This document shows positions 27,693 to 39,958 of a stretch of 64,000 nt of DNA, in pieces. A model generated the notes under the pieces. That model saw only the letters and a program-made list of their open reading frames with translations. It was not told the origin of the DNA and searched no databases. The stretch is from Paracidobacterium acidisoli (lineage in GTDB: Bacteria > Acidobacteriota > Terriglobia > Terriglobales > Acidobacteriaceae), in NCBI RefSeq assembly GCF_003428625.2, contig NZ_QVQT02000001.1, positions 186,001-250,000 of the forward strand. The letters run 5' to 3'. How positions within the stretch are numbered: the first letter of the stretch is position 1; each line of letters opens with the position of its first letter. Both the position numbers and the translations under genes were made by a program.

Positions 27693-28376
27693 TTACTCCT
27701 CTTCAAGTGCCTTCAGCGCATCCTGCGCATCGGGAAAGCCCTGCTGGCTTGACTTCTGATACCAGGCAATCGCCGCGGTTTTGCTCTTCTGCACGCCGAG
27801 TCCGCGCTCATACAGATAGCCGACCTTGTACTGCGCTTCCGGGCGCCCCTGCTGCGCCGCCATCAGATACCACTTCATCGCGTCTGTATAACTCTGCTGC
27901 GGCCCCTGTCCTTTTTCATACATCTCGCCCAGACGGTACTGCGCTTCAGGGCGCCCCTGTTCAGCCGCCTTCTCATACCACTTCGCCGCTTCGGCGTAGT
28001 CGCGGCTTACTCCCCGTCCCTGGTCATAAAGCACGGCCAGCCGGTACTGCGCGTCTTTGTATCCCTGTTTTGCCGCGAGCGTGTACCACTTCGCAGCCTC
28101 GGCCGGATCAGGCGGGCGAATCCCTGCATCGTACATGCCGCCCAGCTTGTACTGTCCGTCCGCGTAACCCTGCTCGGCGGCCATTTTGAACCACTTCATC
28201 GCCTCGCGCGAATCGCGTGGCACCCCCAGAGCGTAGGTCATGCCAAGCTTCACCTGAGCCGCCGCATCACCGGAAGCTGCCTTCGCTTTCAGCGCGGCGT
28301 GGTCGTCCTGCGCGCGGGCGGAAACAAGCGGCATCACCGCCACGATCACGGCAAACAGTAATACAAGTCGCTTCAT
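27693..28376 (-). CDS. Secreted Sel1-like repeat protein
   Basis: About 227 residues. Three ATGs compete (28388, 28382, 28376). The last has GAGG 6 nt upstream and gives a clean signal peptide ending SARA. Five to six Sel1 repeats of 36 residues follow (AAEQGYADGQYKLGGMYDAG and variants), forming a TPR-like solenoid for protein contacts. It sits between two paralogous Ig-repeat genes on the same strand and may act with them in the periplasm (inference). Confidence 0.88.
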   Translation of the reverse strand: MKRLVLLFAVIVAVMPLVSARAQDDHAALKAKAASGDAAAQVKLGMTYALGVPRDSREAMKWFKMAAEQGYADGQYKLGGMYDAGIRPPDPAEAAKWYTLAAKQGYKDAQYRLAVLYDQGRGVSRDYAEAAKWYEKAAEQGRPEAQYRLGEMYEKGQGPQQSYTDAMKWYLMAAQQGRPEAQYKVGYLYERGLGVQKSKTAAIAWYQKSSQQGFPDAQDALKALEEE

Positions 28377-28453
28377 ACTCATCCTCATTCCCGCCGGCCA
28401 ACCGGCGCCGTCAGCCGGACTGAAGTTATCCCGCAGAAAAACTTCGCGCTCCT

Positions 28454-31400
28454 TTATTGCTCGAAGTGCAGAATGGTTGGCTCAGTCACCGCCGCATCCA
28501 CATCCAGTCCGAAACACTCCGAGGTGCTGGCTACCCAGACCGCGATCGTCCTGCCGCTGGGTGAGGTCAGCAAAATCGCGCCCCGCCCATTATTCGAAAC
28601 GCTCGATACGGAGTACGTTCCTCCCAGCCCAAGATTCAACGTCAGCGACGAGCTCTGGCTGAGATCCTCCGTACCGGTCACGCTTCCCTGTCCCTGAATG
28701 CTGTTTCCGCCATCAAAATTGGCGATTCCTGAAAAGAGCGGTGTCGCTGCCTCAATCGGCTCTCCCGATCCGAAGATGTACGTGCCGAGAATATCGGCGT
28801 TGGAGAACGGCGGAATGATCTGCTGCTGCTTCATCTCGCCAATCGCCACAGCGCCCGTCGAGGCATCCATCAGGAATGCACTGTTCTGCCCGAAGGCATA
28901 CAGGTACCAGATTGTGGTCGTTCCTGTAGACGGATCTGCGAGATTGATCGTGCCGCGTCCATTGAGCTCCATGTCATACGCGCCGTTCAGCACGCCGGCC
29001 ACGGTGACATTGCCTCCGCTGTTCTGATCGAAGATCATCGTCACACCCTGGCTGCCGTCAAACTGGAGACGTCCCACCGTATCCTGCGGAGCGCTGCCAT
29101 TCGTACCGCTCAGGTTGAAGACAGATCCGCCATTCAGCGATGCGGAGGTAAATGGAGCTCCGTTCTGGAACTCTGCCGGCCCGCTGAAGATCGGATTATC
29201 AAAGCTGAGCGGATCGGTGGAGATCATCAGAAATTCATTCGCGGAGACGATATAGAAGGCGAAGTTAAACGTGCCTCCGTCGAATCCTGGAATGCTCAGC
29301 GTTGCGGTGCCGCGCCCCGTCGCGTCATCGACATCGTAGATTCCATCGAAGGTCGCGAAGGTGGGAGAGACAATGCCTCCATCGTTTACATCCAGACTGC
29401 TCCCTGAAATAAAGCCGCTTCCGCTCGGGAAGATCAGCCCCAGAGCGCCGATCCTCGATCCGCTCACGTCCATGCCGGTAAGGCTGAACGCATAGCCTCC
29501 GGAAAGCACCGAAGCATCGAAGGCCGCAGGCGTCTGCAGCTCGATCACACCTGAGCCGCGAACACCGGTACTGTCGAAAGAGATAAAGCGCCCCTTCGTA
29601 CCCAGCAGATTCAGCGAGAACCGGTACGTATGCGTGCCCGCCGGACTGCTGATCGTCATCATGCCGCGGTTATCGCCACCTAACTGATAGGTACCCGCAA
29701 TCGACAGGTCTGTGCTGGAACCGGCGGAGTTGTTTACGTCTTCAAGACCCGATGTGATCTTTCCCTGACCGTCGGCCGTGAACGAACCCGCGGACTGATA
29801 GACGCCGTTGCTGTCGAAGCCGGTGAACAGGAACGCATACTGGCCGTTCAGCTTCGAGTTGTTCGTAGGCGTAATGGTAACGGCAGCAGCAGCAAACGAC
29901 GACGTATTCGCCTGCGATGCCGCCTTCACCGTTACGCTCGCCGGGTTCGGAACACTGGCCGGTGCCGTGTACAGACCGGCAGCGGTGACCGTGCCGCAGG
30001 CGGCTCCCGAGCATCCCGGCCCGCTGACGCTCCAGGTCACAGCCGTATTCTTTGTTCCTGAAACCGTCGCGCGGAACTGCTGCTGGGTGCTCACCGTAAC
30101 AATCGCATCGGCGGGCGAGATCGTTACCTGAATAGGCACGATGATCGTCACCAGCGCGGAGGCCGAAGTCACGCCATCCGCAATGGCAGTCGCCGTCACC
30201 GTCACCTGCGCCGGATTCGGTACCGTATCCGGAGCGGTATAGAGACCACCCGGGTTGATCGTGCCGCAGGCTGCTCCCGCGCAGCCGGAACCGGAAACAC
30301 TCCACGTCACACCGGAAACCGATGTGCCGGTCACCTTTGCACTGAACTGCTGCGCAGCTCCAATACCGAGCTGTGCTGAAGTCGGCGAAATCGTCACGGC
30401 AACCTGCTGCTCCAGGACCACGGTTGCTGTGCTCGACTTTGTCGGATCGGCAACCGAGGTCGCGGTCACATTCACCAGCGACGGATTCGGCAAAGTCGAA
30501 GGCGCGGTGTAAAGACCGCCCGTCGTGATCGTGCCGCAGGCCGATCCCACACACCCAAAGCCGGAGACGCTCCACGTCACACTTGTGTTGCTGTTTCCGG
30601 TGACTGCCGCTTTGAACAGCTGCTGCGCTCCTGTATTCAGTTGAATGCTTCCCGGCGTAACCGACACGCTCACCTGCGTCGACGAAGTAAGAATCGTCAC
30701 TGTGGTGGAAGCCGACATCGCCGGATTCGACAAGGAGGTCGCAGTGACCACAATCGTTGCCGGATTCGGCGCAGTAGCCGGTGCCGTGTAGAGGCCGCTC
30801 GCATTGATCGAGCCGCAGGCAATTCCCGTGCAGCCGCTCCCGGAGTCGCTCCAGATCACAACGCCGCTGCCTGAACCGCTCGCTGCAAACTGTACCTGGC
30901 CCCCCGGCTTTACCTGCGGAGACAGAGGCGAGATCACCAGCCCTGATGAAGCTGCGACAATCGTCACCGTTGCTTTGCCGGATTGAGAAGGCGCAGCAAC
31001 AGCCGTCGCAATGATACTCACCGCAGGCGAAGCGGGAATCGCTGCCGGCGCCGTATACAGGCCCGATGACGAGATCGTGCCGCAGGCTGACCCGCTGCAC
31101 CCCGCTCCGGCAAGGCTCCATCGGACCGCCGCATTCGTGCTTCCCTTTACCGTGGCGGAAAACTGCTGCTGCTTCCCAGCGCCGACCTGAGCCGTCAGCG
31201 GAGATACGGAAACAGAAACAGTGGTCGCCAGCTCAATGACGACCGTCGCCGATGCAGACTTCGATGTGTCGGCTGCTGAAGTCGCCGTCACCGTGGCCAG
31301 CGACGGGTTTGGAACGACAGCGGGCGCCGTGTAAAGCCCCGCGGCCGTGATTGTGCCGCACGACCCGGCAACGCATCCCACGCCGGAGACGCTCCAGCTC

Positions 31401-31837
31401 ACCGCGGTATTCGATGTTCCTGTAACGCCGGCTGAAAACTGCTGCTGCCCGTTCTGACCAATCGTGACCGACGTTGGCGAGAGCGTGACGCCGACACTGG
31501 CCGCAGCTCCGACTGTAACCATTGCGGTCCCGCTCTGCGTCACGTCTGCAAGCGACGTGGCAACAACCGTGACCGCAGACGGATTCGGCGCAGCAGCCGG
31601 TGCCGTGTAAAGTCCATCGGCGGTAATCTCTCCACAGGTAATGCCGACGCAGCCCGCGCCCGACAGGCTCCAGATAACAATGTTGTCTGCAGAACCGGTT
31701 GCGCTGAACTGCACCTGCGCGCCGGGCTTCACCTGCACAGCGGCGGGCGACACCACCACAGCGGCCGAAGCCAGGAGTGTGCTCTCAAGCAGGGTGACCA
31801 GAAACACCATCCATGCCATTCTTTGAATACGCGTCAT
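28454..31837 (-). CDS. Second giant Ig-like repeat protein, paralog of 23096-27535
   Basis: 1127 residues with a signal peptide (ending near ASA), seven Ig-like repeats with the same GC-x4-CG pair and GLYTAP core, then the same C-terminal region (KLNGQYAFLFTG, GLEDVNN, GRGTATLSIPGF). It differs from its neighbour mainly in repeat number, as expected after duplication and repeat gain or loss. The start ATG 31837 is preceded by AGAGGTGA. No shared 14-bp element was found in front of this copy. Confidence 0.85.
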   Translation of the reverse strand: MTRIQRMAWMVFLVTLLESTLLASAAVVVSPAAVQVKPGAQVQFSATGSADNIVIWSLSGAGCVGITCGEITADGLYTAPAAAPNPSAVTVVATSLADVTQSGTAMVTVGAAASVGVTLSPTSVTIGQNGQQQFSAGVTGTSNTAVSWSVSGVGCVAGSCGTITAAGLYTAPAVVPNPSLATVTATSAADTSKSASATVVIELATTVSVSVSPLTAQVGAGKQQQFSATVKGSTNAAVRWSLAGAGCSGSACGTISSSGLYTAPAAIPASPAVSIIATAVAAPSQSGKATVTIVAASSGLVISPLSPQVKPGGQVQFAASGSGSGVVIWSDSGSGCTGIACGSINASGLYTAPATAPNPATIVVTATSLSNPAMSASTTVTILTSSTQVSVSVTPGSIQLNTGAQQLFKAAVTGNSNTSVTWSVSGFGCVGSACGTITTGGLYTAPSTLPNPSLVNVTATSVADPTKSSTATVVLEQQVAVTISPTSAQLGIGAAQQFSAKVTGTSVSGVTWSVSGSGCAGAACGTINPGGLYTAPDTVPNPAQVTVTATAIADGVTSASALVTIIVPIQVTISPADAIVTVSTQQQFRATVSGTKNTAVTWSVSGPGCSGAACGTVTAAGLYTAPASVPNPASVTVKAASQANTSSFAAAAVTITPTNNSKLNGQYAFLFTGFDSNGVYQSAGSFTADGQGKITSGLEDVNNSAGSSTDLSIAGTYQLGGDNRGMMTISSPAGTHTYRFSLNLLGTKGRFISFDSTGVRGSGVIELQTPAAFDASVLSGGYAFSLTGMDVSGSRIGALGLIFPSGSGFISGSSLDVNDGGIVSPTFATFDGIYDVDDATGRGTATLSIPGFDGGTFNFAFYIVSANEFLMISTDPLSFDNPIFSGPAEFQNGAPFTSASLNGGSVFNLSGTNGSAPQDTVGRLQFDGSQGVTMIFDQNSGGNVTVAGVLNGAYDMELNGRGTINLADPSTGTTTIWYLYAFGQNSAFLMDASTGAVAIGEMKQQQIIPPFSNADILGTYIFGSGEPIEAATPLFSGIANFDGGNSIQGQGSVTGTEDLSQSSSLTLNLGLGGTYSVSSVSNNGRGAILLTSPSGRTIAVWVASTSECFGLDVDAAVTEPTILHFEQ
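29870..31770 (-). repeat. Seven tandem Ig-domain coding repeats
   Basis: Same unit type as in 24500-27469 but fewer and more diverged copies. Confidence 0.75.
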
Positions 31838-31913: not shown

Positions 31914-32954
31914 TTATTTCTGTGAGATCTGCGGCTCCCGGTGCATGACGGCGGCCGCATTCATCTGCTGATTCACAATGTCCTTCAGCGCCGCATAGTC
32001 AATCACGCCACTGAAGAAATGTCCGTTGACGAAGAAGCTGGGCGTGCCGGTCAGCCCGAGGCTCTTTGCCTCATCCAGATCCTTCTTTATCTCGGGCGCT
32101 TCTTTTCCACTGTCCAGACAGGTGTCAAAGCGGTCTCCATCCAGCTTCAGCACCCGAGCATGTTCCTTCAGCGCATCCACGTCCAGCAGGTGGCTGTAGA
32201 AAAGAACGTCATGATACTCCCAGAACTTGCCCTGCTCACCGGCGCAGCGCGAAGCCTCGGCTGCCTTTTCGGCGCTGTGATGCATCGGCAGCGGAAAATC
32301 CTTGAAGATCAGCGTCAGGTTGTCGCCATACTCCTTCTTCAGCTGCTGAATCTGCGGATTCACCTTCTGGCAGTATGGGCACTCATAATCCGCGAACTCC
32401 ACCAGAACCACCGGAGCATTCTGCGCGCCGCGCGCGTATGCCTTCGCCGTATCCACATCGGCGGAAGGGGGCATCAGCAGAACGTTGATCTTCGCTTCTT
32501 TGCGGAGGTTCTCGATAAAGGCGGCGCGGGCTTTGGTGCGGCGCAGCTCGCGAAGATGCTGCAGCACCTCCTCGCGTACCGCCTGATAGGGGTCCTGCGT
32601 CTCCAGGCCTTCGTAGTACACCTCAAGCTGGTCTTCTGTGGGGTCCTTCACATCCTTGTACACAACCGTATTCATAAGCTCGTCCAGCGAGATGTTTCTT
32701 TTGCGCGCTTCATCCTCCAGCAGCCTGTTATCGATGAGCTCTTCGAGGGCCTTCCTCTCGTTCAGGTAGTACTGATATCCGGCCTGCAGAAGCTTTCCGC
32801 CTTCCTGCTGCTGCAGATCCGCAACGGTAAGGTTGCTGCCGCCAACTCTGGCAACCACTTGTGAGGCCTCCGGCCTCGTCTGTCCATGGCAGGTAATGGT
32901 TGCAGTCAGAGACGCCGCCAGGAGGAGCGAGCTCGCGATTCGCACAGTATTCAT
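31914..32954 (-). CDS. SurA-N-like / DsbA-type thioredoxin fusion, secreted
   Basis: 346 residues with a signal peptide of about 24 residues. Residues ~30-155 are helical and resemble the SurA/PpiC N-terminal chaperone region (VARVGGSNLTVADL, ALEELIDNRLLEDEARKR). Residues ~175-335 form a DsbA/BdbD-like thioredoxin domain with active site CPYC (FADYECPYC) and cis-Pro loop TGTPSFFVNG. It should make or shuffle disulfides in exported proteins while holding them with the N-terminal part. Its neighbours are unusually rich in paired cysteines and are natural client candidates (inference). Confidence 0.88.
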   Translation of the reverse strand: MNTVRIASSLLLAASLTATITCHGQTRPEASQVVARVGGSNLTVADLQQQEGGKLLQAGYQYYLNERKALEELIDNRLLEDEARKRNISLDELMNTVVYKDVKDPTEDQLEVYYEGLETQDPYQAVREEVLQHLRELRRTKARAAFIENLRKEAKINVLLMPPSADVDTAKAYARGAQNAPVVLVEFADYECPYCQKVNPQIQQLKKEYGDNLTLIFKDFPLPMHHSAEKAAEASRCAGEQGKFWEYHDVLFYSHLLDVDALKEHARVLKLDGDRFDTCLDSGKEAPEIKKDLDEAKSLGLTGTPSFFVNGHFFSGVIDYAALKDIVNQQMNAAAVMHREPQISQK

Positions 32955-32975: not shown

Positions 32976-33072
32976 CAGATTTGATCTGGATAAAGAGTGC
33001 CAGGGTAGGTGGGGACTGCCGTCCCTGGCACTTCACTTGCCTTGCGTGCCCAGGCATCGCCGACTCTTTATC
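32976..33072. other. Nested inverted repeats
   Basis: Three pairs of arms: CAGAT/ATCTG (32976-32988), AGTGCCAGGG/CCCTGGCACT (32996-33005, 33023-33032) and GATAAAGAGT/ACTCTTTATC (32989-32998, 33063-33072). The last two share bases, so they are alternative folds. The region is both the 3' end of the small Cys-rich gene and the leader of the DsbA-like gene. Confidence 0.5.
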
Positions 33073-33096: not shown

Positions 33097-33678
33097 TCAG
33101 TCACCGGTACCGCACGAGCAGATACCATGCCCGCTGCCCAGAATATTCACGAAACTGCACTGCGCCTGCAGATTCGCCAGCTCGGAGGCGCCGAGGGTCG
33201 AGTCTGAAGATTCGGTTTCGGTAATAGGATAGGCAGTGCCTACCGGATTCTGAATATGTGTCACCCATGCCCGCAGATTCGCGGTCGGCTTGACATTCGA
33301 AGTCGGATCACACGGAGAGTTATTGACCGCGGCCGAAACGATCTTGATCACGCCATTGCTCGAAATCACACCGGTCAGTGGATTCGACGTAAGGTCGCGA
33401 CGGACTGAAAGAGTACGCAGGCCATTGTGAGTCTCCACGCAGCCGCAGCATTCGGTGAGCTGCTGATCTGCGTCAAAGACGTAGACCATGGCGCAAAGGT
33501 TCCCATACGTCAGGCCGGGATTGTCGATCCGGACTGTCGCATCGGGAGCCGCGCCCGCGTTGTTGGAGAAATAGTTGACTTTGAAAACGTCCTGAGCAGA
33601 GGCAACGCTGGCGCCTAATGTAATCAGGCCAACGATTACCAAAGCCAGGTTCAGGGTCTTACAGAGTGTAAGTCTCAT
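33097..33678 (-). CDS. Secreted eight-cysteine module protein, function unknown
   Basis: 193 residues from ATG 33678, with AGGAGGAG upstream. A signal peptide of about 28 residues ends at ASAQ. The mature protein has eight cysteines, including ECCGC and a terminal CSC, and ends exactly with GSGHGICSCGTGD. The same module, with the same eight cysteines and the same ending, is the C-terminal domain of the lipoprotein at 38060. I do not recognise the family. The CC/CSC clusters suggest disulfides or metal binding. Confidence 0.85.
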   Translation of the reverse strand: MRLTLCKTLNLALVIVGLITLGASVASAQDVFKVNYFSNNAGAAPDATVRIDNPGLTYGNLCAMVYVFDADQQLTECCGCVETHNGLRTLSVRRDLTSNPLTGVISSNGVIKIVSAAVNNSPCDPTSNVKPTANLRAWVTHIQNPVGTAYPITETESSDSTLGASELANLQAQCSFVNILGSGHGICSCGTGD

Positions 33679-33999: not shown

Positions 34000-35124
34000 T
34001 TATTGCTGGGCCGCCTGCGCTGCCTCCTGAGCATCCAGTTCCTGCAGCTGCTTCTTCTGCAGCTCGTCCAGAATCTGCCCAGGCGTCTTTCCCGAAGCTG
34101 TGGCTGCCTGCTGAATATTGACGTTGGTGGGTATACCGTTCCCACCAGGATCGGCCACAGCTTCTACTGCCGCTGGCTGCACCACGGGAACTTCGCCGCC
34201 GCCAAAGCCCGCGCCATAAAGCGTCGGGCCGCCGGCCTGTTCAGCCATCGCTCCTGCTGCAGCTCCCGCCGGAACCGGAGGCGGCTCGTTCGTGCGGGCG
34301 GTAAGAATAAGCTGCTGTACATGTTGCGAATCCTGCGGCGAACTCACTAACACATAGTTCACATTGGACCCATCAAGCAGGATCTCGAGTACTCTGCGCG
34401 CCGAAGCCGGCCCTATGTCATCGAATATTCGGTTATCCGCACTCTGCGGCGGCGCGTCGATCGCGATCCCTGTAAGTCCTTTGATTGAATCAAGAATCTG
34501 CCCGAGCCTGGCTCCATGTCCGGATACGGTCAGCTCGCCGCCGATATAAGACACGACCGGGGACGCCGGATCTGGCTGCGGCATAACGGGCGCAGCATCG
34601 GCTGCTGCCGCCGGCGTGCTCTTCTCCTGCGCAGTATCTGCAGGAGACTCCTGCGGAAGCACCGGTGGGGCATCTGTTCCGGCTGTACTCTTCGGCTGCG
34701 CAGGCTGCGTATGCTGAGCTGGTTCATCGCGTTTCCTTCGGCATGCCGCGCCTTCCAGGGCGGATACATCGGCCGGATCATCCGCATTCGAAAGATGAAG
34801 CGATCGCTTCGCCGATGCGGAATCGGAAGCAGAGCTGCTTTGTCCTTCACCGTCGGCGGACGAATCCCCGGATTTGGTGCTCAGGCTCTTCCCTCCTGCG
34901 CTCAGATCGCACACTTCTTCATGCGACGTCGCAGCAGGAGCTGCGCTTTGCTGTTTTTCCTGCTGTCCATATGCTCCGGCGGCCGGTGCAAGCAGTGCTC
35001 CCAGAGCAGCAAGCAGCAGAAATCGTTCTGAAAACAGAAAAGGATGACGGCAGGCAAATCTGATTGTTACAGGAACGGTTGCAAATGCACTATGAAGAGA
35101 CGATGGTGTGTGGCGGCACAGCAT
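34000..35124 (-). CDS. Secreted protein with a secretin-type (STN-like) domain
   Basis: 374 residues from ATG 35124, which has GGAGG 7 nt upstream; earlier in-frame ATGs at 35151 and 35214 lack one. A long N-region precedes the hydrophobic signal segment FLLLAALGALLAP. A low-complexity Ser/Ala/Pro region follows to about residue 185. A domain like the short N-terminal fold of secretins and TonB receptors covers about 190-285 (GGELTVSGHGARLGQIL, RRVLEILLDGSNVNYVLV). The tail is Gly/Ala/Gln-rich. No secretin pore domain is present, so it is not a secretin itself. Confidence 0.78.
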   Translation of the reverse strand: MLCRHTPSSLHSAFATVPVTIRFACRHPFLFSERFLLLAALGALLAPAAGAYGQQEKQQSAAPAATSHEEVCDLSAGGKSLSTKSGDSSADGEGQSSSASDSASAKRSLHLSNADDPADVSALEGAACRRKRDEPAQHTQPAQPKSTAGTDAPPVLPQESPADTAQEKSTPAAAADAAPVMPQPDPASPVVSYIGGELTVSGHGARLGQILDSIKGLTGIAIDAPPQSADNRIFDDIGPASARRVLEILLDGSNVNYVLVSSPQDSQHVQQLILTARTNEPPPVPAGAAAGAMAEQAGGPTLYGAGFGGGEVPVVQPAAVEAVADPGGNGIPTNVNIQQAATASGKTPGQILDELQKKQLQELDAQEAAQAAQQ

Positions 35125-35167
35125 AAGCACCCTCCAACCCGCCAATTCCATCACTCTGTTATAGGAA

Positions 35168-35192
35168 CCGCAATCGTACATTTGGCTTAGTC
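35168..35192 (-). promoter_or_regulatory. Shared upstream element, copy 3
   Basis: The best match to copy 1 (22/25). It is 55 nt upstream of the STN-domain gene; the 14-mer core is 35179-35192. Confidence 0.55.
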
Positions 35193-35225
35193 TGAGGGGT
35201 TGACTAGTCTGCATAGCTAACGAGT

Positions 35226-35239: not shown

Positions 35240-35460
35240 GATATACCCAAAAAGATACATCCATTCCCCTTGACAGTTCGGGGTATTCAGGGAAAGACTG
35301 CCATGTGCTATTGAAGTTCTTATTCTTGTTCCTTGGTTATCCCCCCGCGAGCAGGAAGTGATAGTTCAGGCTTACGGCACACCACTTCGCTCTATCTATA
35401 TCCGAATTTCCCCTCAGAAGACCGAGGCAGGAAATTGTTTATGTGGAGAGGAGAACAACC

Positions 35461-35994
35461 GTGTCTATGGTCATGGGCGAGCCGGGGTTTATTCTTCTGG
35501 ATGAGACCCTTCATCCCATCGCATTTAACCCAGCTGCAATACAGATCCTTGCTTTTCCGAACAAGCCCGAACGAATTAAGCCTGTAAATGTCTTCCTTTC
35601 AGACAAAATTCGCTCCAGTCTTCTGAATCATCACGGGAAAAGCGATCCGGAATTTGTGCGCGAATACCGTTCCGGCAGCAGACGATATCTTTGCCGCGCC
35701 TTCCGCCTCAACTGCAATCTGTCCGCGCGCACAGGACTGGCCATAGCGGTGCTGCTTGAGCGGCACATGTCCGGCTCTGAATCTCTCGAAGAGCTGGCGC
35801 AGCAGTTCGACCTTACCGGCCGCGAGAGCGAGACCGTCTCATTGCTGCTCGAAGGACTCACCAGCAAAGAGATCGCCAACCGGATGAACATCAGCCCCAA
35901 TACGGTGAAGGCTTTTCTGCGTCTCGTGATGGTGAAGATGGATGTCTCCACCCGCTCCGGAATCGTAGGAAAGATTGTCGGCCCTCTGCCCTGA
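35461..35994 (+). CDS. LuxR-type transcriptional regulator with PAS-like N-terminus
   Basis: 177 residues from GTG 35461, with AGAGGAG upstream; GTG 35443 is in frame but would place that site inside the gene. Residues 1-100 look PAS-like (GFILLDETLHPIAFNPAAIQIL). Residues ~112-172 are a GerE/LuxR helix-turn-helix (LTGRESETVSLLLEGLTSKEIANRMNIS, NTVKAFL). There is no receiver domain. It is the only DNA-binding protein within 23-40 kb and therefore the first candidate to read the shared 14-bp motif (inference). Confidence 0.88.
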   Translation: MSMVMGEPGFILLDETLHPIAFNPAAIQILAFPNKPERIKPVNVFLSDKIRSSLLNHHGKSDPEFVREYRSGSRRYLCRAFRLNCNLSARTGLAIAVLLERHMSGSESLEELAQQFDLTGRESETVSLLLEGLTSKEIANRMNISPNTVKAFLRLVMVKMDVSTRSGIVGKIVGPLP

Positions 35995-36074: not shown

Positions 36075-36395
36075 GTGAAACATGCAATCCAAACCGACCG
36101 CCGGCAGGCCGCGCGCTTCCCGCAGAGTCTGGAGATAAAGATTCAGCCGCTTCCCCAGCTCGGCTCCAGCCGCACCCTGCGAGCAGGCGCCATCACCGGC
36201 CGGATTCAAAACGTCAGTGAAGGTGGCATCTGCCTTATTACCTCGCGCCCCATTGAAAAGTTCTCCCTGCTGCGCTGCGAAATCGCCATCGGCGACGTAC
36301 CGTTGCACATCTCCACGCTGATGCAGGTTCGCTGGACACGAAAACAGAACATGCAGCCGGAGAGTTACCTCTCCGGCCTTGAGTTTCTTCTTTAA
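36075..36395 (+). CDS. PilZ-domain protein
   Basis: 106 residues starting at GTG with no strong Shine-Dalgarno. A PilZ fold fills the protein: RRQAARF near residue 9, IQNVSEGGICL near 45 (the Asn/Asp-x-Ser-x-Gly-Gly element) and SGLEF at the end. These are the c-di-GMP-contact motifs of the family. It lies about 80 nt after the LuxR gene. It may couple c-di-GMP to the surface-protein set around it (inference). Confidence 0.85.
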   Translation: MKHAIQTDRRQAARFPQSLEIKIQPLPQLGSSRTLRAGAITGRIQNVSEGGICLITSRPIEKFSLLRCEIAIGDVPLHISTLMQVRWTRKQNMQPESYLSGLEFLL

Positions 36396-36405
36396 GCTTC
36401 GCGCC

Positions 36406-37701
36406 TCAGTTACAGGCAGGAGCTGTGTTGTAGTTCACGCATCCTGAAGTCTGGTTGCCGATCGTCCAGACAGCAGATACGTATGGGTTGTTCGCGCGGT
36501 GAATGAAGTAGTAGATCTCGCTGAACGCGGAGCCGAGCGTCACCGGTGTGCCTACGTCGTTCAGCTGATCGGTCCACTGCACAGGATCGCAGTTCTCATT
36601 CCAGAACATCTCCGACTGAATCACGCCCGTGATCGGCTGACTGGGTGAGACTCTCATCGCCTGGTACTGTTGCCCCTGGCTCGTGTAGATGCAGGCATTC
36701 CATGTCACCGTGATACCCGATGAAGCAGAGACGACCGGCACAGCAGCGGTCGATGCAGTGTAGGAATCGTCATACGCTACTACCTGAAGAGTGTGCAGGC
36801 CGGCAGACAAGGCGAGATTCACGCCGATGGAAGGATCGGGATTGACATCGGTCCACAACAGCTTCCCCGCATCGAAGATGCCCCAGAAAGCAACGCTCCC
36901 GTCTGTATGACTCGTCTGCGCCGCTGTCGCCGTAATGGTCACCGAGCCGTTCACCGATTGATGCGGCGATGGAGACGAAACGGTCACGAGCAGACTGGAG
37001 CCCGCAGGACTGGTCGGCGATGCACCGGAAGAGCCTGTACCCGCGCTGCTGCCGGTTCCTGAACCGGCTCCTGTCCCTGCGCCGTCGCCCGTCGATCCCG
37101 AACCGGAGCTCGAGCCGGACGAGCCGCTGCCGGAGGATGAAGTGCTGCCCGATGAAGGCGAATAACACCCATAGCAGCCCGCAGAGCTGCCTCCCGAAGA
37201 AGAGCTTCCTGAGCCGGAACCAGCGCTCGACGAGCCCGATCCGGAGCCGGTGCCTGAACTGCTGCCCGCGCCTGAACCTGAAGCGGAGCCGGAGCCTGTA
37301 TCGCCCGATGAGCCCGCAGACCCGGATGATCCGGAGCCGCTGCCGGCGCTCGTACCCGAAACAGTGAGCACGAGGGGCTGAGATGCCGTCTCCGCCGCGT
37401 AGTCGGCGACATCCACTTCTACCGAACCGGACTGAGCCACATCATCGGCATACACGCCGGCCATAAGCATGCCTGTATTGATGAAGTAAGTCTGAAGCGG
37501 CTGAATGCCATTCGCGGTATGGAGCCGCACAACCGATCCGGAGTTAAAGCCGGAGCCGGCAATCGTCAGCACAAAGCCTCCACTGCCGGCCTGCACACTC
37601 GATGGCATAAGACCTGTGATTGTCTGGCCGGCTGCAATGCCGGAGAAAAGCAGGCTGGCGAAAAGACACGCCAGCAGAACGATGCGCGGGGGATGCGACA
37701 T
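36406..37701 (-). CDS. Secreted IPT/TIG protein with Ser/Gly linker
   Basis: 431 residues from ATG 37701; a GTG at 37728 is less likely. After a signal peptide (ending AAGQ) comes an IPT/TIG Ig-like domain (ITGLMPSSVQAGSGGFVLTIAGSGF) to about residue 115. About 120 residues of Gly/Ser/Thr follow, interrupted by GCYGCYSP. The C-terminal ~185 residues start with another Ig-like segment (LLVTVSSPSPHQSVNGS) and carry four cysteines, the last one residue from the end. The layout is modular and extracellular. Function is unknown. It converges with the PilZ gene, 10 nt apart. Confidence 0.8.
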   Translation of the reverse strand: MSHPPRIVLLACLFASLLFSGIAAGQTITGLMPSSVQAGSGGFVLTIAGSGFNSGSVVRLHTANGIQPLQTYFINTGMLMAGVYADDVAQSGSVEVDVADYAAETASQPLVLTVSGTSAGSGSGSSGSAGSSGDTGSGSASGSGAGSSSGTGSGSGSSSAGSGSGSSSSGGSSAGCYGCYSPSSGSTSSSGSGSSGSSSGSGSTGDGAGTGAGSGTGSSAGTGSSGASPTSPAGSSLLVTVSSPSPHQSVNGSVTITATAAQTSHTDGSVAFWGIFDAGKLLWTDVNPDPSIGVNLALSAGLHTLQVVAYDDSYTASTAAVPVVSASSGITVTWNACIYTSQGQQYQAMRVSPSQPITGVIQSEMFWNENCDPVQWTDQLNDVGTPVTLGSAFSEIYYFIHRANNPYVSAVWTIGNQTSGCVNYNTAPACN

Positions 37702-38059
37702 GAATACTACCCTCGATCCTTGGAACACTTCAGACAGAAGTGCGCAGATTGTACTGCTGAAACAAGAATCAGGAAGAATAGAAGAGCTGAAAATCAGCAG
37801 GATCGAAGACTACTTCATTCCCACTGTGTATGGCTTGTTTCCGTGTACTCGATCAGTCTACCAACTGGCTTTGATGATTCTTTGTGATTAGTCCGAATGG
37901 GTTAGTTCGTAATGGCTATATCTTTTAAACTAATACATCTCCCTTACTGACATTCGCCTAGGCATGATAGAGAATTGCCATTCCCCCGGCCAATGAAGTC
38001 TGCTGAAGAACGCGGTTAGCCCATCGGAATTAGTCAAAGCAAGGGGGATCACTGCCATC
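37702..38059. promoter_or_regulatory. Divergent regulatory region with motif relatives
   Basis: 358 bases between divergent secreted-protein genes. Two one- or two-mismatch relatives of the 14-mer occur: 37886-37899 (GATTAGTCCGAATG) and 38014-38027 (GGTTAGCCCATCGG). No ORF with coding character was seen. Confidence 0.35.
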
Positions 38060-39958
38060 ATGAAGAATCCTGCCGAGGCGTTCTCTGCGGCGTCGCAAAC
38101 AGCCGTCGCCACCGCCGCTGCCTTTCTGATGCTGTTCTTACTCGCATGCGGAGCCCCGCCCATGACGACCACCACAACCATGCACCTGATTTCTCTGGTC
38201 GTTACTCCATCGGCTTCGAGCATTGCACTGGGACAGGTCCAGCAGCTCAAAGCCACCGGAGTCTTCAGCGATGGCACCATCAAAGATCTGACGCAGTCTG
38301 CCGCATGGACAAGCAGTACACCCGCGCTTGCAGGCGTCGATGCATCGGGACTCGTCACATCGCTTTCTCCTGGCGCTGCGAACGTAACCGCGGCGATAGA
38401 GGACTTTCGCAGCAGCGCGGTTCTCTCCATCTCCAAAGCTGCGCTGGTATCGATCGCGCTCAGTCCTGAAGCCTCATCCGTCGCTCTCGGCAACACCATC
38501 CAGCTGACAGCAACCGGAACCTATACCGATAAAACCACGCAGGACCTGAGCAGTCTTGTGACCTGGACAAGCTCACAACCCGATGTTGCCGTGATGAGTT
38601 CTTCCGGTCTCGCCGTCTCGCGCTCCATCGGCACATCCACGGTCGCAGCAGCTCTCGGATCGATCGACGCCTCCACGCCGCTCACCGTTTCCGCGGCAGG
38701 ACTGGTGTCCATCGCAGTCGCTCAGAATCATACGGCGATTCCGCTCGGAACCACGGCACAGTTCACCGCGAAGGGCACCTATACCGACGGCAGCACACAG
38801 GACCTTACCAGCTCTGTTCGCTGGAGCAGCCTGCCTGCAGGGGTTCTCAATATGGCTTCCACCGGTCTCGCGACAACAAAGACGACCGGAGCCGCCACCA
38901 TCACTGCCGCCTCCGGACCCATCAGCGGCAGCGGCGCGCTGACTGTAACTGCGGCGGCGCTTACATCCATCAGCGTAGTCTCATCGAATCCTGCGATGCC
39001 GCTCGGCACCCGGCAGCAGCTCACCGCTACCGGCACATATACCGACGGCAGCACGCACGACCTTACGACATCGGCCGCATGGTCCAGTACATCCGCCGAC
39101 GTCGTGACCAGCAGCGGTGGCGGGCTGGTCTCCGCAAACTCACTCGGCAGCGCAACCATCTCCGCTGTATCTGCGGCCATCAGCGGCAATATCGATCTGA
39201 CGGTTTCGCAGGCGACGCTCTCTTCCATCAGCATCACGCCCGCCAGTCTGACGATGCCGCTTGCAGGCAGTCATCAGCTCTCCGCAACCGGGATTTATAC
39301 CGACGGCAGCAGTCATGACATCACACAGTCCGTTACCTGGACCGTGGACGATCCCACCGTCGCCGGCATCGATTCAACCGGAACCGCAACCGCACTGAAG
39401 GTCGGCGCCACCAATGTGGAATCAAGCTCCGGAGGAGCGACCGGATCGATCACGCTGACAGTGCAGCCGCTCTCTGCGGTCGGATACTTCACGCACGCCG
39501 CATCCGATCCGGATGCAAACGTGCGCATGACAAACCCCGGCACGACCGGTGCAAATCTGTGTTCTATGGTGTACGTCTTCGATCAGGATCAGCAGATGGC
39601 GGAATGCTGCGGCTGCGTCATCTCGCCCGATGGCCTGCGCACGCTGTCTCTGAAGAATGACCTTCTCAGCAATCCACTTACCGGAGTATCTCCGGTCGCG
39701 GGCTCAGTGATGCTCGTCCCTTCCGACTACGCCACTAATACGTCCTGCAACGCCGCGACGCTTACTCCCTCCGGACTAACAGTTGCATGGGCTACTCATC
39801 TGCAGACTACTCCGGCGAGTCCGGCCACCGCGACCGAGACTCCGCTTTCGCTCACGCCCCTCGACCCGGCGCTGACATCCGCTTTGCAGGCTCAGTGCAG
39901 CTTTATCCAGCAGCTCGGCTCCGGGCACGGCATCTGCAGCTGCGGAACAGGAGACTAA
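38060..39958 (+). CDS. BIG2-repeat lipoprotein with C-terminal eight-cysteine module
   Basis: 632 residues. The N-terminus ends in a lipobox (LLAC), so it is probably lipid-anchored at Cys 31. Five BIG2 (bacterial Ig-like group 2) repeats of about 85 residues follow, recognisable by TYTDGSTxDLT and SGLAT motifs. From about residue 473 the eight-cysteine module begins (NLCSMVYVFDQDQQMAECCGC) and the protein ends with GSGHGICSCGTGD, as in the 193-residue protein at 33097. The repeats would present this module away from the membrane. No function is known to me. Confidence 0.86.
   Translation: MKNPAEAFSAASQTAVATAAAFLMLFLLACGAPPMTTTTTMHLISLVVTPSASSIALGQVQQLKATGVFSDGTIKDLTQSAAWTSSTPALAGVDASGLVTSLSPGAANVTAAIEDFRSSAVLSISKAALVSIALSPEASSVALGNTIQLTATGTYTDKTTQDLSSLVTWTSSQPDVAVMSSSGLAVSRSIGTSTVAAALGSIDASTPLTVSAAGLVSIAVAQNHTAIPLGTTAQFTAKGTYTDGSTQDLTSSVRWSSLPAGVLNMASTGLATTKTTGAATITAASGPISGSGALTVTAAALTSISVVSSNPAMPLGTRQQLTATGTYTDGSTHDLTTSAAWSSTSADVVTSSGGGLVSANSLGSATISAVSAAISGNIDLTVSQATLSSISITPASLTMPLAGSHQLSATGIYTDGSSHDITQSVTWTVDDPTVAGIDSTGTATALKVGATNVESSSGGATGSITLTVQPLSAVGYFTHAASDPDANVRMTNPGTTGANLCSMVYVFDQDQQMAECCGCVISPDGLRTLSLKNDLLSNPLTGVSPVAGSVMLVPSDYATNTSCNAATLTPSGLTVAWATHLQTTPASPATATETPLSLTPLDPALTSALQAQCSFIQQLGSGHGICSCGTGD

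Follow-up and report, generated by a model that had tools for sequence, protein, structure and literature searches.

An Eight-Cysteine Module of Secreted Type Confined to One Acidobacteriota Family: A Candidate Surface-Binding Domain Encoded Next to a DsbA-Like Gene

Introduction

Intimin/invasin-type adhesins carry a disulfide-bearing terminal domain on a membrane-anchored stalk of Ig-like repeats. Oxidoreductases of the DsbA/Thioredoxin_4 type that have a dedicated substrate are likewise a known kind, and PilZ proteins carry a c-di-GMP motif that reads RxxxR followed by [DN]xSxxG. Among described protein folds, the ASRAH superfamily, which includes Thermotoga TM1070 and ASRT (Pfam PF07100), offers the nearest comparison for the module analyzed here. 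According to De Souza, Iyer and Aravind (2009; PMC2739507), the hallmarks of this superfamily are a strand-1 Trp and an Asn that follows the second strand, sugar binding is predicted for it, families other than ASRT also replace the His and Cys of ASRT, extracellular lipoprotein versions are described, and TM1070 is a tetramer.

Here, we describe an eight-cysteine module that is encoded twice in a 64,000-nt stretch of the Paracidobacterium acidisoli genome (hereafter, the window), once as a stand-alone protein and once at the end of a Big_2 lipoprotein. Like the intimin/invasin adhesins, the lipoprotein is an anchored Ig-like stalk with a predicted disulfide-bearing end domain; unlike them, it has an N-terminal lipid anchor rather than a β-barrel, and its tip is predicted to have another fold. 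The neighboring oxidoreductase shares with dedicated-substrate DsbA enzymes a CPYC thioredoxin domain and a gene linked to that of a cysteine-rich candidate substrate, whereas its SurA-like N-terminal part (a match below the cut-off) and its single orthologous group, tied to the module, set it apart. The module itself is like ASRAH proteins in its predicted sandwich, in a near-invariant Asn after strand 2, and in conserved residues whose spacing fits the ligand signature of ASRT. It differs in having no significant sequence match and no strand-1 Trp, in being apparently secreted, in its four predicted disulfides and extra C-terminal helix and tail, and in being confined to one Acidobacteriota family within the genomes searched.

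Module Copies in the Window

The stand-alone gene has an ATG start and a 193-aa product (33097-33678, minus strand), the N-terminus of which resembles a signal peptide by eye (residues 1-28, with AxA before Q29). The mature part contains, in the order C1 to C8, C62 (in NLC), C77, C78, and C80 (in ECCGC), C123, C174 (in AQC), and C187 and C189 (in CSC), and residue 6 is a ninth cysteine that lies within the putative signal peptide. The second copy closes a 632-aa protein (38060-39958, plus strand) that matches Big_2 above the Pfam cut-off (142.1 bits, five stretches) and has a lipobox-like LLAC30 by eye; the same eight cysteines are found within its final 164 aa. The two modules are 49% identical and their last 14 residues are the same, both ending LGSGHGICSCGTGD. 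These results bear out the initial annotation, which had described a stand-alone eight-cysteine module that, with the same 14 final residues, also ends the Big_2 lipoprotein. A search with the stand-alone module matched the Big_2 copy at E 6.6e-46 and a third, stand-alone copy on a different contig of the genome is 84% identical, and the likeness is therefore more than chance. The final 45 nt of the two window copies, stop codon included, agree at 33 of 45 places; therefore, the identity of their tails appears to be kept at the protein level and not to reflect a recent copying of DNA. The third copy (L002 1441-2076, plus strand) is alone and off the cluster, flanked by genes that by eye are purD-like and gatB-like. 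The features of the window are as follows.

27693-28388, minus strand: Sel1-repeat protein (Pfam Sel1, E 3.4e-51)
28454-31837, minus strand: Ig-like repeat protein of 1,127 aa (Pfam I-set, E 6.4e-10; Big_2, E 1.2e-8)
31914-32954, minus strand: DsbA-like oxidoreductase (CPYC) whose N-terminal part is SurA-like; the next gene downstream of the module gene (Pfam)
32998-33030, minus strand: palindrome (stem-loop) in the gap that separates the stop codon of the module gene from the start of the DsbA-like gene
33097-33678, minus strand: stand-alone eight-cysteine module gene (open reading frame and translation, family search, model)
34000-35214, minus strand: protein with an STN-like stretch, upstream of the module gene (ortholog alignment)
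35443-35994, plus strand: LuxR/GerE-type regulator, divergent to the module gene (Pfam GerE, E 7.2e-13)
36075-36395, plus strand: PilZ protein with RxxxR and [DN]xSxxG strings (Pfam PilZ, E 4.8e-9)
38060-39958, plus strand: lipoprotein-like protein with a C-terminal module (lipobox by eye, five Big_2 stretches)
39464-39955, plus strand: module copy closing the Big_2 lipoprotein (model, pLDDT 82.1, pTM 0.81)

Distribution and Novelty of the Family

Among 398 genomes of the family to which the window belongs, 46 matched the query protein P0001 at E ≤ 0.001 and 45 after one weak match was dropped; this count uses 121 match rows and omits the seven weakest (E 3.5e-8 and worse), including the sole row from genome G205. 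A module profile was constructed from 69 representatives minus three (L064, L068, and one L091 copy). In a sample of the order, which overlaps the family sample in many genomes, 39 of 397 genomes match the profile and all 39 belong to the family of the window, and in a sample of the phylum the single matching genome among 396 is that of the window itself. Nine of the module loci are labeled as Acidobacteria, Acidobacteriaceae, or Candidatus Sulfotelmatobacter. No relatives were found in the collections of viral contigs and plasmids, both of which were searched, and a mobile or viral origin was rejected on these grounds.

No Pfam model matched the stand-alone copy, and the module of the Big_2 lipoprotein gave a single match below the cut-off (Epiglycanin_TR, E 0.011, 16.1 bits vs. 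a cut-off of 27). Scanning 66 members against Pfam returned four unrelated families with one member each (E 0.0004-0.01), NCBIfam had no match to the two window copies, PDB sequences had none up to E 10, and our literature search found no published description. The statement in the initial annotation that no known family fits thus holds for Pfam, NCBIfam, and PDB sequences. Taken together, comparisons at the sequence level support a real, undescribed, and lineage-restricted family of secreted type.

The alignment used below has 106 rows, which are drawn from fetched loci and do not represent every match of the family search. Leaving out one truncated row (L090), 82 of the 105 rows are stand-alone sized and 23 lie inside long proteins; four of the 105 run off the contig on the N-terminal side. 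In several other genomes, three or four module genes that have diverged from one another stand in an array (L052 4342-7902, L091 5643-7782, and L022 615-2827), which suggests that the paralogues have diversified.

Pairwise Loss of Cysteines

Of the 106 rows, 80 have the complete set of eight cysteines. C1 and C5 are both present in 87 rows and both absent in 19, and neither ever occurs alone. C3 and C7 are both present in 101 rows and both absent in four, the one exception being the truncated row; for C4 and C8 the corresponding numbers are 101 and three, and the two exceptions are the truncated row and L059, in which C8 is lost, C4 is kept, and a Cys is present further on. C2 is found in every row, and C6 in every row except the truncated one. 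Separately, at locus L067 (4055-5855) of genome G135, which is 98% complete and has no close DsbA-like gene (see below), the C4-C8 pair is lost in two of three modules.

Losses were also counted on a quick tree built with the eight cysteine columns blanked. C1, C3, and C4 were lost one, three, and two times, respectively, and each time the partner was lost as well; C8 itself changes three times, and in one of these cases (L059) C4 is not lost. Sign tests on these losses are not significant, with six events in total and one for C1-C5. Because the cysteines vanish in pairs, we propose a bond map in which covariation supports C1-C5, C3-C7, and C4-C8 as probable bonds and C2-C6 would follow by exclusion. 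In mature numbering, one strand carries C51 and C53 and the tail carries C160 and C162, with a single residue between the two cysteines in each case, a spacing that would suit a tail strand stapled beside the C51/C53 strand.

Predicted Fold and Comparison with the ASRAH Superfamily

Two AlphaFold2 runs with an alignment of 15 sequences gave models of the stand-alone copy (pLDDT 64, pTM 0.68) and of the Big_2 copy (pLDDT 82, pTM 0.81) that have a similar strand order and a C-terminal helix, the tail being the least certain part of both. For both models the best solved structure was TM1070 of Thermotoga (Foldseek E 4.3e-3 for the stand-alone and 2.3e-3 for the Big_2 copy), and no Foldseek match of either model reached E 0.001. 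The Big_2 copy aligned with TM1070 at Z 10.3 (106 of 116 residues, 2.7 Å), only modestly higher than the Z of 7-8 that models without a clear match typically reach at most, followed by ASRT (Z 7.0-7.3), FlgD (6.6), and carbohydrate-binding modules (5.9). The stand-alone model aligned with TM1070 at Z 9.0 (107 residues, rmsd 3.0), and ASRT (5.6), FlgD (5.5), and carbohydrate-binding modules (5.3) were tied behind it, ASRT not standing out. In both predicted models, the module is an eight-stranded β-sandwich that can be superposed on TM1070.

A link to ASRT in sequence was rejected: hhalign comparisons of the module with ASRT profiles of three and then 11 sequences were never significant (E 0.25, 0.35, and 0.34), and PF07100 matched neither the window copies nor any of the 66 members scanned. 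As for the ASRAH hallmarks, an Asn (N53, mature N26) follows the second strand in both models and is present in 97 of 105 rows; the Trp is absent from the start of strand 1, where a Tyr is conserved instead (102 of 106 rows). Strand 2 carries an Asp in 90 and an Arg in 91 of 105 rows, both invariant in the 15-row alignment. In a gapless register taken from a nonsignificant profile alignment (E 0.25), these residues (D46 and R50) occupy the positions of the His and Cys with which ASRT contacts its ligand, so that the ASRT signature SHEshChhN with His and Cys is not found and the module has Asp and Arg in their place. The models thus suggest a resemblance to the TM1070/ASRT sandwich at the level of fold, and we do not claim membership in the superfamily. 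On the same models, we infer that the module may bind a ligand, most likely a glycan.

Linkage to a DsbA-Like Gene

The product of 31914-32954 matches Thioredoxin_4 (E 1.5e-29) and DSBA (E 3.7e-18) above the Pfam cut-offs and SurA_N_3 below its cut-off (0.0015), and the CPYC motif is present in all 34 DsbA-like orthologs. A close ortholog (E ≤ 1e-70) was identified in 39 of the 398 genomes, all 39 of which also encode the module. In the eight genomes examined for this, no next-best match was better than 1.9e-32 (G135), so that the threshold sits in a wide gap there. The hypergeometric probability of this co-occurrence is 5e-48, a value that ignores kinship among the genomes. Six genomes have the module and no close DsbA-like gene, and five of these (G056, G109, G226, G254, and G340) are 72-85% complete and one (G135) is 98% complete. 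With completeness of 90% or more and contamination of 5% or less as filters, 24 genomes encode the module and 23 the DsbA-like gene.

The two genes are also linked in position. Of 40 DsbA-like genes, 36 have a same-strand module match upstream at a distance of 106-471 nt (median 198.5). As for the remaining four, three do not share their contig with any module match, and the fourth (G311) shares it with one but runs in the opposite direction. In all 26 region loci with both genes (L042-L101), one of which is the window's own place, the recognized gene right before the DsbA-like gene is a module on the same strand. Between one and four module copies precede the DsbA-like gene in each cluster, and some modules are encoded away from it (at L082, L085, and L087). 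From gene order and co-occurrence, the DsbA-like protein seems to be reserved for the module as an oxidase or folding factor. Alternatively, its substrate could be the Ig-like protein encoded next, which has pairs of cysteines in its repeats. By eye, the repeats of that protein (28454-31837) have a regular pair, about GxGCxGxxCGxI, which makes it a possible second client.

Conservation of the Cluster and a Stem-Loop after the Module Gene

Conservation of the cluster was assessed by comparing the window proteins with the open reading frames of fetched loci. Of the 26 cluster loci, 21 contain a LuxR-type gene, the other five having at most 4.1 kb of upstream sequence; this gene lies ahead of the module in the same direction in eight of the 26, and a divergent arm of LuxR, PilZ, and Big_2-module genes is present in 13. 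Both loose PilZ motif strings occur in 20 of 21 orthologs of the PilZ protein. The assignment of STN is weak, as 4 of 12 orthologs of 34000-35214 match it (best E 0.027) and the window protein does not. Downstream, the Ig-like and Sel1-repeat genes (28454-31837 and 27693-28388) are neighbors conserved in part of the loci. Between the PilZ and Big_2-module genes, the window additionally encodes a Ser/Gly-rich protein (36406-37728, minus strand) that NF058597, the model of the choice-of-anchor Z repeat, matches above its cut-off at 57 bits; because the other divergent clusters compared have no match at this place, the gene looks inserted.

The palindrome at 32998-33030 has a pattern that is unique in the window, and a slightly stricter form of it occurs once in the genome, on which basis a dispersed repeat was rejected. 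Hairpins stronger than those of shuffled sequences (z < -2) were scored in the 170 nt after each stop codon and follow 61 of 83 module genes, compared with 18/34 DsbA-like, 6/16 PilZ, 6/39 LuxR, 3/25 Big_2-module, 3/14 Ig, 1/10 Sel1, and 1/8 STN-like genes. When the shuffling was done differently, such hairpins were scored after 58 of 82 genes for stand-alone copies and after 4 of 22 for fused ones. The terminator scan called no T-tailed terminator at 32998-33030. Our guess is that the stem-loop attenuates transcription between the module and the DsbA-like gene.

Proposed Role and Alternative Explanations

In our preferred reading, to which we give about an even chance, the module is a surface-binding domain armoured by disulfides, and an oxidative folding factor is dedicated to it. 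It would be exported by Sec and oxidized in the periplasm by the neighboring DsbA-like protein, and would fold into a stapled β-sandwich of the TM1070/ASRT type with a C-terminal helix and a two-cysteine tail. It could then be displayed as the ligand-binding tip of a Big_2 stalk with a lipid anchor (38060), and each cluster would in addition supply one to four paralogous subunits that are secreted in free form; the LuxR-type regulator and the PilZ (c-di-GMP) protein would set the timing of its production, and the stem-loop would allow it to be made in excess over its folding enzyme. Possibly, the module is thus the tough, sugar-binding tip of a cell-surface structure. The most specific version, a one-substrate folding system in which a cluster controlled by c-di-GMP and LuxR provides a private DsbA-chaperone fusion for a four-disulfide, sugar-binding module of the ASRAH fold in stalked and soluble forms, is a tentative picture that we put forward with considerable doubt.

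The main rival to a binding domain is a structural role, in which stand-alone modules polymerize or coat the surface in a pilus- or mat-like manner, the Big_2 copy is their anchor, and the disulfides confer toughness only. Up to four tandem paralogues before one DsbA-like gene would fit such subunits, as would a stem-loop of the kind expected after the gene of an abundant product, the tetrameric state given for TM1070 in PMC2739507, and the upstream STN-like protein, STN being named for secretins, with the reservation that this match is weak. However, the Pfam matches of the eight window cluster proteins include no secretin or usher family, and the conserved Asp and Arg of strand 2 (90 and 91 of 105 rows) would suit a binding face. 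On balance we regard a structural subunit as unlikely.

A further alternative is a redox or metal center, in which the cysteines bind metal or cycle between redox states and the DsbA-like protein is their reductase or partner. CCxC and CxC strings are present and the gene of a thiol enzyme adjoins, but the losses occur in fixed pairs that leave the other pairs in place and never remove a four-ligand set. A metal or cluster site is therefore disfavoured, and we hold the whole proposal to be very improbable.

If the surface-binding reading is correct, the bond map and predicted fold describe a previously undescribed secreted family that is tied to an oxidase apparently private to it, in soil bacteria whose surface biology is poorly known. 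The system would let one ask whether individual surface proteins of bacteria have catalysts of disulfide formation of their own, and the ASRT-type sandwich would extend to extracellular, disulfide-locked tip domains.

The C-Terminal Tail

The initial annotation had regarded the C-terminus as invariant, had proposed that this free end is a functional or processing signal, and had asked whether all homologs end at GTGD. Only 36 of 105 rows do so exactly (8 of 23 fused and 28 of 82 stand-alone copies). By type, 58 of the 105 tails read CxCGxGx, among which most of the 36 GTGD-ending rows fall, 17 read CxCxxEDx[DA][FY], and 30 are other. Up to 17 residues lie beyond the aligned part of the module, and what is mostly conserved in the tail is a glycine-rich stretch and the CxC. 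One copy (L068) is N-terminal in its protein, right after a signal-peptide-like start and followed by Ig-like repeats; the module can therefore cap a stalk whether it comes before or after the repeats. The diversity of tails and this N-terminal copy speak against both an invariant end and a processing signal.

Accordingly, the proposal that the final GTGD signals sorting or processing was rejected and has hardly any probability left: the 58 CxCGxGx ends and a GTGD end retained by one copy despite loss of C8 favor it, but 47 of 105 tails differ in sequence or length and the L068 copy is not C-terminal at all. On the surface-binding reading, the tail would instead owe its conservation to its two cysteines, which would be part of the fold and pair with two cysteines of ECCGC, and to three bonds (C2-C6, C3-C7, and C4-C8) that would fasten the C-terminal helix and the tail to the strand carrying ECCGC. 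The copy that retains its end (L027 728-1339, minus strand) has lost C4 and C8 and still ends GTGTGD; the end of the tail can therefore outlive its cysteine, which counts against this cysteine-based explanation of the tail.
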